Below, one piece after another: positions 2,878 to 58,918 of a DNA stretch of 64,000 nucleotides; the first letter of the stretch is position 1; every line of letters begins with the position of its first letter. Position numbers and translations under genes: made by a program. The notes beneath the pieces are model-generated. The model did not search any database, was not told the DNA's origin, and saw only the letters and a program-made list of their open reading frames with translations. This DNA comes from an uncultured Gemmatimonadota bacterium (GTDB lineage Bacteria > Gemmatimonadota > Gemmatimonadetes > Gemmatimonadales > Gemmatimonadaceae): contig CADEFN010000003.1 of the NCBI GenBank assembly GCA_902826615.1, positions 517,133 through 581,132 of the forward strand, read 5' to 3'.

Positions 2878-4242
2878 TCATCCCTTTTGACGAATAGCTT
2901 CGGCGTGCACGTCGGCGTCAAAGCCCTTCTCACCCTTGGCCACCACCACGGTCGCCACGGCGTTGCCGATCAGGTTGGTGATGGCCCGCGCCTCACTCAT
3001 GAATCGATCGACTCCGAGCAACAGTGCCAGCCCCTCGAGCGGAACAACACGAAGGGCCGACAACGTACTCGCCAGCACAATGAAGCCCGACCCCGTCACC
3101 CCCGCCGCTCCCTTCGAGGTGATCATCAACACCCCGAGCACACTCAGCTGCTGCCCCAGCGTCAGATCAACACCGTACGCCTGGGCGATGAACAACGTGG
3201 CCATCGACAGGTAAATGGACGTTCCATCGAGATTGAACGAATACCCGGCCGGAATGACCAGACCGACGACGGGCTTGGCACACCCGAAGCGCTCCATCTT
3301 GTCGATCATGCGCGGCAACACGGCCTCGCTCGACGAGGTTCCCAGGACGATGAGAATCTCATCCTTGATGTACACCACCAATCGCCACAGGGAAAAGCCG
3401 TACGCCCTGGCGATCAGGTTCAGAACCACAAAGATGAACAGCGCCATGGTGAGGTACACGGTGCCCATCAACCGACCAAGTGCGACCAGGGAGCCCAGAC
3501 CGTAGTTGCCGATGGTGTAGGCCATGGCACCAAAGGCCCCGATCGGTGCGACCACCATCACGATGCTCACGATGCGAAAGAACACCGTCATCAGGCGATC
3601 CAGCACGCGGGTGACGGGTCGAGCCGTCCGGCCTAACGACGCGAGCGCCACGCCGAAGATGACCGAGAAAAACACCACCTGCAGTACTTCACCCTGCGCA
3701 AAGGCGCCCACCACACTGCTGGGCACGATATGCGTGAAGAAGTCGATCCAATTCATCTCCGCGCCCTGCTGTGCATACTTGGAGATGTCGCCCTTGGCGA
3801 GTCCGGCGGCGTCGATCCCATCGCCAGGACGAAACACGTTCATCACGATCACGCCGATCGCCAGTGCGAACGTGGTGACCACCTCGAAGTAGATGAATGC
3901 CCGCAACCCCACCCGACCGACCTTCTTGAGGTCACTGGTCTGCGCGATCCCGAGCACAATCGTGAGGAAGATGATCGGCGCGATCACCATCCGGACCAGA
4001 TTCACGAAGGTGTCTCCCACCGGCTTCATGGCCTTGCCCCAGGAAGGCGCCACCACACCCACGATCACACCCAGGGTAATCGCCACCAGCACGCGGAACG
4101 TGAGATTCCGGCCTAACCGGCTGATGACGCTCGGTGGAACAGGGTGTGCGGTCGGCGGAAGTTCGGGCTCGCCGTGCGTAGGCGCTGCGATGTCGTCGCG
4201 CGTTTCGTGACGGATGTCCTCGTCGCGGGGACCTTCGGTCAT
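2878..4242 (-). CDS. dctA: C4-dicarboxylate:cation symporter (DAACS family)
   Basis: The 454-residue protein is an integral membrane transporter of the dicarboxylate/amino acid:cation symporter family, which imports succinate, fumarate, malate or aspartate/glutamate with protons or sodium. Diagnostic motifs are the serine-rich hairpin (VLGTSSSEAVLPRM), the substrate-site motif FNLDGTSIYLSMATLFIAQ and the second hairpin TSKGAAGVTGSGFIVLASTL. About 45 hydrophilic residues precede the first membrane helix, more than usual. It is the first gene of a probable two-gene unit with the tandem acetyltransferase and diverges from the cytochrome c gene across 172 bases. The symbol is assigned by family; glutamate transport (GltP-like) cannot be excluded. 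Confidence 0.9.
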   Translation of the reverse strand: MTEGPRDEDIRHETRDDIAAPTHGEPELPPTAHPVPPSVISRLGRNLTFRVLVAITLGVIVGVVAPSWGKAMKPVGDTFVNLVRMVIAPIIFLTIVLGIAQTSDLKKVGRVGLRAFIYFEVVTTFALAIGVIVMNVFRPGDGIDAAGLAKGDISKYAQQGAEMNWIDFFTHIVPSSVVGAFAQGEVLQVVFFSVIFGVALASLGRTARPVTRVLDRLMTVFFRIVSIVMVVAPIGAFGAMAYTIGNYGLGSLVALGRLMGTVYLTMALFIFVVLNLIARAYGFSLWRLVVYIKDEILIVLGTSSSEAVLPRMIDKMERFGCAKPVVGLVIPAGYSFNLDGTSIYLSMATLFIAQAYGVDLTLGQQLSVLGVLMITSKGAAGVTGSGFIVLASTLSALRVVPLEGLALLLGVDRFMSEARAITNLIGNAVATVVVAKGEKGFDADVHAEAIRQKG

Positions 4243-8649: not shown

Positions 8650-8689
8650 GGGGCCCTCGCTTTCGCGTTGGCCCCCTTTTTGTTTTTTT
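8650..8689 (+). promoter_or_regulatory. Attenuator-like terminator in the csp leader
   Basis: GGGGCC (8650-8655) pairs with GGCCCC (8670-8675) and is followed by a run of thymines broken by one G (8677-8689). It has the form of an intrinsic terminator, yet it lies between the promoter and the csp start codon, with no upstream gene on this strand. A small hairpin (8616-8620 with 8632-8636) precedes it. The likely role is cold- or Csp-dependent attenuation. Confidence 0.55.
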
Positions 8690-8710
8690 CCCAGTTCGGA
8701 GTTTATCGAA

Positions 8711-8923
8711 ATGCGCACGACGGGCACGGTCAAGTGGTTCAACGATGCGAAGGGGTTCGGCTTCATCACCCCCGAAGGCGGTCAGAAAGACTGCTTCGTG
8801 CATCACTCGGCGATTCAGGGTTCGGGGTTCAAGTCCCTCGCCGAAGGTGAGAAAGTCGAGTTCGACATCGTCCAGGGCCAGAAGGGCCCGGCCGCTGAAA
8901 ACGTCGTGAAGCTCGGCCGATAA
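8711..8923 (+). CDS. csp: Cold-shock protein (CspA family)
   Basis: The 70-residue protein is a single cold-shock domain with both nucleic-acid-binding motifs: [15 protein letters not shown] (RNP1) and DCFVHHSAI (RNP2). Such proteins melt RNA secondary structure and can act as antiterminators after cold shock. It is the first gene of a three-gene translation operon, with rpsU starting two bases after its stop. The long leader with a terminator-like hairpin suggests regulated expression. Family identity is certain; the symbol is generic because cspA/B/C paralogues cannot be told apart. Confidence 0.95.
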
Positions 8924-8925
8924 GC

Positions 8926-9108
8926 ATGGCTGAGGTCACCCTGGCCGAAGGCGATAACGTCGAACGCGCCCTCCGTACTTTCAAAAAGCAGGTGCTGCGC
9001 GCCGGAATCCTCAAGGAACTCCGTCGTCGCCGTCACTATGTGAAGCCCTCTGAGGCTCGGCAGCTCAAGGCCGCAGCAGCCCGTCGCCGGGTACGCACCA
9101 AGAAGTAG
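8926..9108 (+). CDS. rpsU: 30S ribosomal protein bS21
   Basis: The 60-residue, highly basic product matches bS21 in length and pattern: an N-terminal strand region ([21 protein letters not shown]), then a helix rich in arginine ([19 protein letters not shown]) and a basic tail. bS21 sits on the small subunit platform near the anti-Shine-Dalgarno sequence and aids initiation. It follows csp by two bases and precedes infA by 16, so the three are expressed together. Confidence 0.95.
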
Positions 9109-9124
9109 CGTACCCGTTCGGCTC

Positions 9125-9346
9125 ATGGCAAAGGAAGATATGGTTGAAATGGAGGGCGTCATCTCCGACGTCCTCCCGAGTGCCACGTTTCGAGTTCAGC
9201 TTGATAACGGGCACCAGATCATTGCCACCATTGGTGGCAAGATGCGTAGTCACCGGATTCGTGTTCTCTCTGGGGACCGGGTCCGGGTCGAGGTCTCTCC
9301 CTACGATCTCAGTCGTGGGCGAATAACCTTCCGGCACAAGGATTGA
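9125..9346 (+). CDS. infA: Translation initiation factor IF-1
   Basis: The 73-residue product is a single S1/OB-fold protein with the IF-1 signature ([18 protein letters not shown], then [20 protein letters not shown] and [18 protein letters not shown]). It binds the A site of the 30S subunit during initiation. Full length, last gene of the csp-rpsU-infA operon, closed by a strong terminator. Confidence 0.97.
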
Positions 9347-9364
9347 CCACACAGCGTTTCGGCA

Positions 9365-9391
9365 ACGGCCCCACTTCGGTGGGGCCGTTTG
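9365..9391 (+). terminator. Rho-independent terminator after infA
   Basis: A perfect ten-pair stem (9365-9374 with 9379-9388) closes a TTCG loop and is followed by TT then GTCGTT. It ends the csp-rpsU-infA transcript and lies just before the convergent selenoprotein gene. Confidence 0.8.
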
Positions 9392-9401
9392 TCGTTGCAG
9401 C

Positions 9402-9749
9402 CTAACGCAACTCCTCGCTGAACAACGCCTCGGAAAACCCGATGAAAAGCCTGCGCCCCTGCCGGACTGCGGGCGCGCGAAGGTTCCCCGACGGGCCCAG
9501 CAAAGCCCCCAGGAGTGTGGCCTTGTCTGGCTTGTCCTTCTTGAGGTTCAGATGCACGACCTTGGAACCGCGCATCGAGAAGATCTCGTCCACCTGGCCG
9601 GCAAGCGCCAGCGCATCCTTCTCGGCCAACTTCTGTTTCTTGGCGTCAACCGTGGTGCCTAACGCCACCTTGCGTCGTCCCAGGAACTCCTGGGTGCGGG
9701 CGCACGTCTTTCAACCAGGGCGGAGGTAACTCCAGTCTACAGCAGCCAT
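9402..9749 (-). CDS. ArsC-family selenoprotein, in-frame TGA read as selenocysteine (codon 13)
   Basis: A conventional caller sees only 88 residues from a GTG at 9668. Upstream, the same frame continues through a single TGA (9711-9713) to an ATG at 9747-9749. If TGA is read as selenocysteine (U), the N-terminus is MAAVDWSYLRPGUKTCARTQ, so U13 replaces the first cysteine of the redox motif CxxC of the thioredoxin-fold ArsC-like family. The rest (GTTVDAKKQKLAEKDALAL, GPSGNLRAPAVRQGRRLFIGF) fits that family to its C-terminus, total 115 residues. A hairpin follows the TGA at the spacing of a bacterial SECIS. The function is probably thiol/selenol redox chemistry rather than proven arsenate reduction. 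No selA, selB or selC is in this window, so decoding rests on genes elsewhere. Confidence 0.85.
9679..9713 (-). promoter_or_regulatory. Bacterial SECIS-like element with Sec codon
   Basis: Reading the minus strand, TGA (9713-9711) is followed by 16 bases and then a perfect six-pair stem, CCCAGG (9694-9689) with CCTGGG (9684-9679), closing the four-base loop AGTT. The loop starts 22 bases after TGA and has a G at its second position, as known for bacterial SECIS elements bound by SelB. The element lies inside the coding sequence, as expected in bacteria. Confidence 0.7.
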
Positions 9750-57734: not shown

Positions 57735-58918
57735 CGAGGGCGTGCCTCCGTTGGTTGATGGGGTGGTGTGTCCTGGCGATGCCGCTCGCCGGGGCGCTGC
57801 ACGCCCAGACAGCGGAGCAGCGACTGCGTCAGCAGCAGAATGAACTCGAGTCGATCCGGCGCGAGCGCTCCGATCTCCAGAAGCGGCTGGATGAGCTGCA
57901 GGGGCGTGCGCACGACCTGAGCGAAGAGGCCACCAACCTGCGGCGTCAGGCCGATGCGACCGCCCGACTCGTCAGGCAGCTCGATGTACAGCTGACGGAG
58001 ATCAATCGCGACGTAGCCAGCTCCGAGGAAACGCTGCAGAAGGCCGAGCAGGAAGTGACGCGCAAACGCGCCTCACTTCGGCAGCGGCTGGTGGACATCT
58101 ACAAGCGCGGGCCGATGTACACCACGGAAGCGCTCCTGTCGGCGCGCACCTTTGGCGATCTGGTGGGACGATACAAGTACCTGCATGAGCTCACCCTGCA
58201 TGACAAGAGTGTGGTCGCGCAGGTGGAGCATCTGTACGATGAAATCGAGGAACAACGCACGCTGCTGGTGCGCCTCCAGACCGAGATCGAGCGCAATCGG
58301 CAGGAAAAGGCGGAGGAAGAGTCGCGGCTGCGCTCCATGCAGGGGCAGCGGCAACAGAGTCTCAAGGTGGTGCAGCAGACCGAGCAGCAGGTGCGGGATC
58401 GTCTGGCGCGCATCCAGCGTGACGAGCAGCGGCTCTCTTCGCTGCTGGCGACCATGGAAGACACACGCAAACGCGCCGATGCAGCCCGGCCTGGCGGCGT
58501 GTCGGGAAGCACGCTGAAGACCACCGACTTCGGCCGACTCGACTGGCCGGTGGATGGCGACATCCTGTACAGCTTTGGCCGGGTGATCAACCCGAACAAC
58601 ACCACGATCCGCTGGAACGGTGTAGGCATTGGTGCGCCGTCGGGCACGGCCGTGAAAAGTGTCGCCGCCGGTGAGGTGACCTACGTGCGACCGATCGGGA
58701 CGTATGGGCTGACGATCATCATCCAGCATGGCGGTGGTGACTACTCGGTGTACGGATCGCTCAGCCGGGCCGATATGCGCGAGGGTCAGCAGGTGACGAA
58801 GGGCCAGGTGATCGGGGCCGTGGGCAGTGCCGATCCGGACATGCCCCCACACCTCCATCTCGAGATACGGCCGAAGGGGCGCGCCGTCGATCCACTCTCC
58901 TGGCTGAGACGTCAATAG
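57731..58918 (+). CDS. envC: EnvC-like murein hydrolase activator (degenerate LytM domain)
   Basis: The 395-residue protein has a signal peptide (LRWLMGWCVLAMPLAGALHAQ), a long coiled coil (about 25-260) and a C-terminal LytM/M23 domain. Two zinc-ligand positions are lost: where active enzymes have HxGxD-like sequence this one has RWNGVGIGAP, while the last motif PHLHLEIRP is kept. That is the pattern of EnvC, which is not itself a peptidase but activates amidases under FtsEX control. GTG start overlapping the ftsX stop confirms the link. Confidence 0.88.
   Translation: MTRACLRWLMGWCVLAMPLAGALHAQTAEQRLRQQQNELESIRRERSDLQKRLDELQGRAHDLSEEATNLRRQADATARLVRQLDVQLTEINRDVASSEETLQKAEQEVTRKRASLRQRLVDIYKRGPMYTTEALLSARTFGDLVGRYKYLHELTLHDKSVVAQVEHLYDEIEEQRTLLVRLQTEIERNRQEKAEEESRLRSMQGQRQQSLKVVQQTEQQVRDRLARIQRDEQRLSSLLATMEDTRKRADAARPGGVSGSTLKTTDFGRLDWPVDGDILYSFGRVINPNNTTIRWNGVGIGAPSGTAVKSVAAGEVTYVRPIGTYGLTIIIQHGGGDYSVYGSLSRADMREGQQVTKGQVIGAVGSADPDMPPHLHLEIRPKGRAVDPLSWLRRQ

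Follow-up and report, generated by a model that had tools for sequence, protein, structure and literature searches.

An in-frame TGA that almost certainly encodes selenocysteine in an ArsC-like gene of an uncultured Gemmatimonadota bacterium

The stretch of DNA analyzed here (64,000 nucleotides, hereafter the window) carries a small minus-strand reading frame of 88 codons that aligns with only the C-terminal part of its protein family. This raises the question of whether the gene is a remnant or whether its catalytic half is concealed by an unusual decoding event. The initial annotation proposed the latter, placing the missing part upstream in the same frame, beyond a single TGA that occupies the first cysteine position of a CxxC motif. 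The features of the locus on which our assessment depends are the following.

9402..9749, minus strand: ArsC-like selenoprotein gene of 115 codons plus stop, with predicted start codon ATG at 9749 and TAG at 9402-9404.
9711..9713, minus strand: in-frame TGA, assigned as the Sec codon (U13 of the U-x-x-C motif); this column holds TGA in 45 of the 46 aligned relatives and Cys in the remaining one.
9702..9704, minus strand: codon for the putative resolving cysteine C16, in a column that is invariant among 33 aligned relatives.
9402..9668, minus strand: 88-codon frame with a GTG start, as expected from standard gene calling; a truncated artefact that covers only positions 28-107 of NF041106.
9679..9694, minus strand: predicted bacterial SECIS hairpin with a 6-bp stem (CCCAGG/CCUGGG) and the loop AGUU, supported by its minimum free energy (MFE), bSECIS constraints, and a covarying counterpart in relatives.

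When the TGA at 9713-9711 is translated as a residue, the frame from ATG 9749 begins MAAVDWSYLRPGUKTC, in which U13-K-T-C16 forms the motif. The entire 115-residue frame matches the NCBIfam model NF041106 ("ArsC family (seleno)protein") over all 107 profile positions (1-107) with 128.5 bits against a cut-off of 85, whereas the part following the TGA by itself scores 87.9 bits over positions 28-107. The protein also exceeds the cut-off of Pfam PF03960 (ArsC; 30.1 bits versus 24) but falls below that of the Spx/MgsR regulator model TIGR01617 (26.8 bits versus 75.05), to which it is therefore not assigned. The N-terminal UxxC/CxxC redox motif that characterizes NF041106 is present, and the U13 and C16 columns are invariant when U is read as C.

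Comparison with 43 relatives indicates that the segment preceding the TGA is translated. For the nine codons before the TGA, divergence of these relatives from the window amounts to 28, 17, and 53% at first, second, and third codon positions, versus 70, 74, and 78% for codons located just upstream of the gene. This low divergence, patterned by codon position, argues that the stretch is under protein-coding constraint and is read in frame with the remainder of the gene. The ATG at 9749 is kept in relatives and similarity fades upstream of it; no clear Shine-Dalgarno sequence was found ahead of this codon.

We then considered how the TGA is distributed among homologues. Within 298 genomes of the phylum, 54 members of NF041106 score above the cut-off, and every one carries exactly one in-frame stop, which is TGA. 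The gene selA is present in all 54 member genomes compared with 221 of the 298 overall (hypergeometric probability 1.4e-8, a value that ignores shared ancestry), and tRNA-Sec passes strict filters in 50 of the 54. Twelve genomes that have only a weak, stop-free match below the cut-off are absent from both the selA and the tRNA-Sec lists, as checked by eye, and G096, another genome with a match of this type, carries both selA and tRNA-Sec; these weak matches are probably paralogues. Below-cut-off homologues that each contain one in-frame TGA were also observed in family f7, genus g72 (for example, G099:C38:74702-74992), and in genus g80 (G110, G200, G291), where the NF041106 scores are 64-74 bits and 21-23 bits. 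These possibly represent separate Sec-containing ArsC-like subfamilies that lie beyond the curated model.

An alignment of 46 loci, which took in Planctomycetota, Desulfobacterota, Myxococcota, and Gammaproteobacteria from a collection of named genomes, shows the TGA at one shared position in 45 cases. The exception, locus L058 (match 2995-3327), has Cys at this position (RKGCTSC) and is the single row in which a Cys homologue is aligned opposite Sec. This only Cys member found also lacks a SECIS hairpin (-0.5 kcal/mol; z +1.6). Because it is nested within a well-supported Sec clade of the tree, its cysteine is best read as a natural replacement of Sec. Where the family is present, the phylum thus keeps it almost wholly in the Sec form, with one Cys form in the 46 loci examined, and this near-exclusive use of Sec suggests a function in which selenium is hard to replace.

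In the same tree, the window protein groups with its own taxonomic family and order, and the nearest relative found is about 52% identical to it. The distribution fits vertical descent with losses, although four congeneric genomes have no copy; these four cases amount to patchy occurrence of the gene and not to disruption of its frame. One congener keeps the SNF-TPR neighborhood, which ends at a contig edge, such that gain and loss cannot be separated. No neighbor of the gene in the window was found next to it in the loci of seven relatives.

The hairpin downstream of the TGA was compared with the bacterial SECIS model given in a 2026 review (PMC13188914), which calls for a loop of 3-9 nt, a stem of 4-16 bp, a G within the first two loop positions, a UGA-to-loop distance of 16-37 nt, and an MFE of -7.5 or lower. 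The window hairpin, CCCAGG-AGUU-CCUGGG, lies within all five of these limits: its 4-nt loop has G at the second position, its stem comprises 6 bp, the TGA-to-loop distance is 22 nt, and the MFE is -10.0 kcal/mol. An equally good fold arose in 4 of 200 shuffles. Single-sequence folding of a longer, 57-nt stretch was not significant (z -0.88). Therefore, we employed a comparative test with synonymous shuffles instead. Among 29 relatives from other taxonomic families (26 distinct sequences), the equivalent 7-bp stem is paired in 179 of 182 cells, versus 110 paired cells on average and at most 126 in 2,000 synonymous shuffles drawn with the codon usage of the family. Changes on both sides of the stem occur in these relatives at columns 18/32, 20/30, and 23/27, and the pair changes seen in the stem are G-C/U-A, A-U/G-C, and G-C/A-U.

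Note that the three sequences from the taxonomic family of the window share an identical hairpin whose register is shifted by one base relative to other families, and the covariation statistics consequently rest on the relatives. The loop of the window hairpin (9679-9694) has 4 nt, versus the 3-nt loop GUU in other families (L022, L025-L053). Comparative evidence of this kind carries the assignment of the hairpin as a probable SECIS element, in agreement with the initial annotation, which had described six base pairs with a loop 22 bases from the TGA.

The proposal also implied that the organism possesses SelA, SelB, and tRNA-Sec. A search of the same genome recovered tRNA-Sec (66.3 bits versus a gathering threshold of 47, with ARAGORN in agreement and the anticodon TCA), SelB (343 bits versus 242), SelA (524 bits versus 268), and SelD (380 bits versus 125). 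All four components of the Sec decoding trait, SelB and tRNA-Sec plus SelA and SelD, thus score above curated cut-offs. SelD is itself a well-known selenoprotein (PMC9312934). The selD gene of this genome (L018, C3:14927-15847, minus strand) has one in-frame TGA (...RCAGUAAKMG...), making it a second Sec gene; standard gene calling would assign it too late a start, and tRNA-Sec lies directly downstream of it. A crude scan of the window for additional TGA-interrupted frames, which missed the known case, returned two candidates at 58075 and 62548 (minus strand) that have no redox motif and look like shadow frames.

These data bear on several other explanations for the TGA. If the locus were a pseudogene, the TGA would be a true nonsense mutation in what was once an ArsC-like gene with a Cys codon, as might be suspected from the N-terminally truncated frame that standard calling yields and from the four congeneric genomes without a copy. 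We consider this highly improbable and reject it on the basis of the conserved TGA column, which recurs in all 54 members from the phylum and in other phyla, and the hairpin, which is retained and covaries in relatives; coding constraint on either side of the TGA and the Sec machinery of the genome likewise speak against decay. A sequencing or assembly error at a TGC or TGT codon is scarcely credible, even though one substitution would restore Cys at a position where the motif requires one of these two residues, Cys or Sec, for redox function, since the identical TGA recurs in 54 separately assembled genomes, and this candidate was also rejected.

It is very unlikely, if slightly less so than either of these, that the TGA is suppressed or reassigned to another residue such as Trp, or that translation starts at GTG 9668 and yields the 88-codon product by itself. 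The start codon is available for the shorter product, and its 87.9 bits are just over the family cut-off of 85, but such a protein would be without strand 1, U13, and C16, which together form the conserved active site. A residue other than Sec is disfavored by the sole non-TGA relative, which has Cys in this column, and reassignment is disfavored both by the full Sec pathway in the genome and by the neighboring TPR gene, which terminates at an ordinary TGA stop (9820-9818). Given the machinery, the SECIS element, and the Cys alternative, Sec is the sole amino acid that fits, and the internal TGA of this small gene is almost certainly a selenocysteine codon. Sec decoding here is supported by comparative evidence. 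None of the signs that the initial annotation had set against its own reading (missing selB or selC, a frameshift, or unrelated upstream sequence) was observed, and the annotation's account of the truncated frame, the upstream portion, and the position of the TGA holds.

The gene converges with a gene for IF-1, which lies side by side with genes for a cold-shock protein and ribosomal protein S21 just beyond it (8687-9346, plus strand). The stretch that separates the selenoprotein gene from the IF-1 gene contains, at 9364-9389, the GC-rich inverted repeat AACGGCCCCAC-CGAA-GTGGGGCCGTT. This repeat has no T run and was not called as a terminator, although it may function in that way. Scans for promoters and terminators gave no hits.

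An AlphaFold model built from 33 relatives has a mean pLDDT of 90.6, and its best PDB matches in Foldseek are Spx and ArsC-related proteins, with moderate E-values (8e-5) and a TM score of about 0.55. Sequence searches likewise point to the ArsC/Spx fold, and the model together with these searches places the product as a predicted ArsC/Spx-fold redox protein with a U-x-x-C motif. Residues U13, C16, G61, G88, L90, R91, A92, P93, and G104 are invariant in the 33 aligned relatives, a set that would fit a thioredoxin-fold active site with the proline loop LRAP.

The best explanation, to which we assign a probability of about 0.97, is that the locus encodes a 115-residue thioredoxin-fold selenoprotein of the ArsC/Spx branch, whose UGA is decoded through SECIS and SelB and whose redox chemistry involves U13 and C16. 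Judging from the comparative evidence, SelB carrying Sec-tRNA(Sec) would bind the hairpin just past the UGA, and Sec would be inserted at residue 13. The fold and its U-x-x-C motif lead us to infer that the U13 selenol would act as the nucleophile on an oxidized substrate, that C16 would resolve the intermediate as a selenenylsulfide, and that the protein would subsequently be reduced and recycled by the thioredoxin or glutaredoxin of the cell. True arsenate reduction is a less likely function than that of a general thiol-oxidoreductase or a role in peroxide/disulfide chemistry, and the name ArsC reflects similarity of fold alone. Since Spx regulators are the closest proteins of solved structure, we also entertain, as an improbable reading, a selenium redox sensor of the Spx type instead of an enzyme, in which a U13-C16 selenenylsulfide would serve as the switch for binding RNA polymerase or some other partner.

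Compared with known systems, the enzyme-like selenoprotein favored here shares its fold and the position of its CxxC motif with Spx/MgsR and ArsC-related proteins (TIGR01617, PF03960), but differs from Spx/MgsR in scoring under the TIGR01617 cut-off and in having Sec in place of the first Cys. ArsC-like selenoproteins form an established group, as the initial annotation had stated. They were reported in 2006 from the Deltaproteobacteria Desulfotalea and Desulfuromonas (PMC1794560), appear in a 2022 review as a COG1393 UxxC arsenate reductase-like selenoprotein family (PMC9312934), and are listed in the 2026 review under NF041106 (ArsC_rel_Se_1) as "Arsenate reductase-like protein, UxxC" (PMC13188914). 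The Deltaproteobacteria proteins belong to the same class and were recognized by the same reasoning, a likeness drawn from their published description; Desulfobacterota relatives have U in the same column as the window protein. With NF041106, the window protein shares a full-length match, a Sec-first UxxC motif, length, and a SECIS just downstream, and there is no difference of substance, the window hairpin being one base out of register relative to members from other taxonomic families. The gene therefore adds a correctly decoded member to an already catalogued selenoprotein family and corrects an entry that standard annotation would otherwise truncate.
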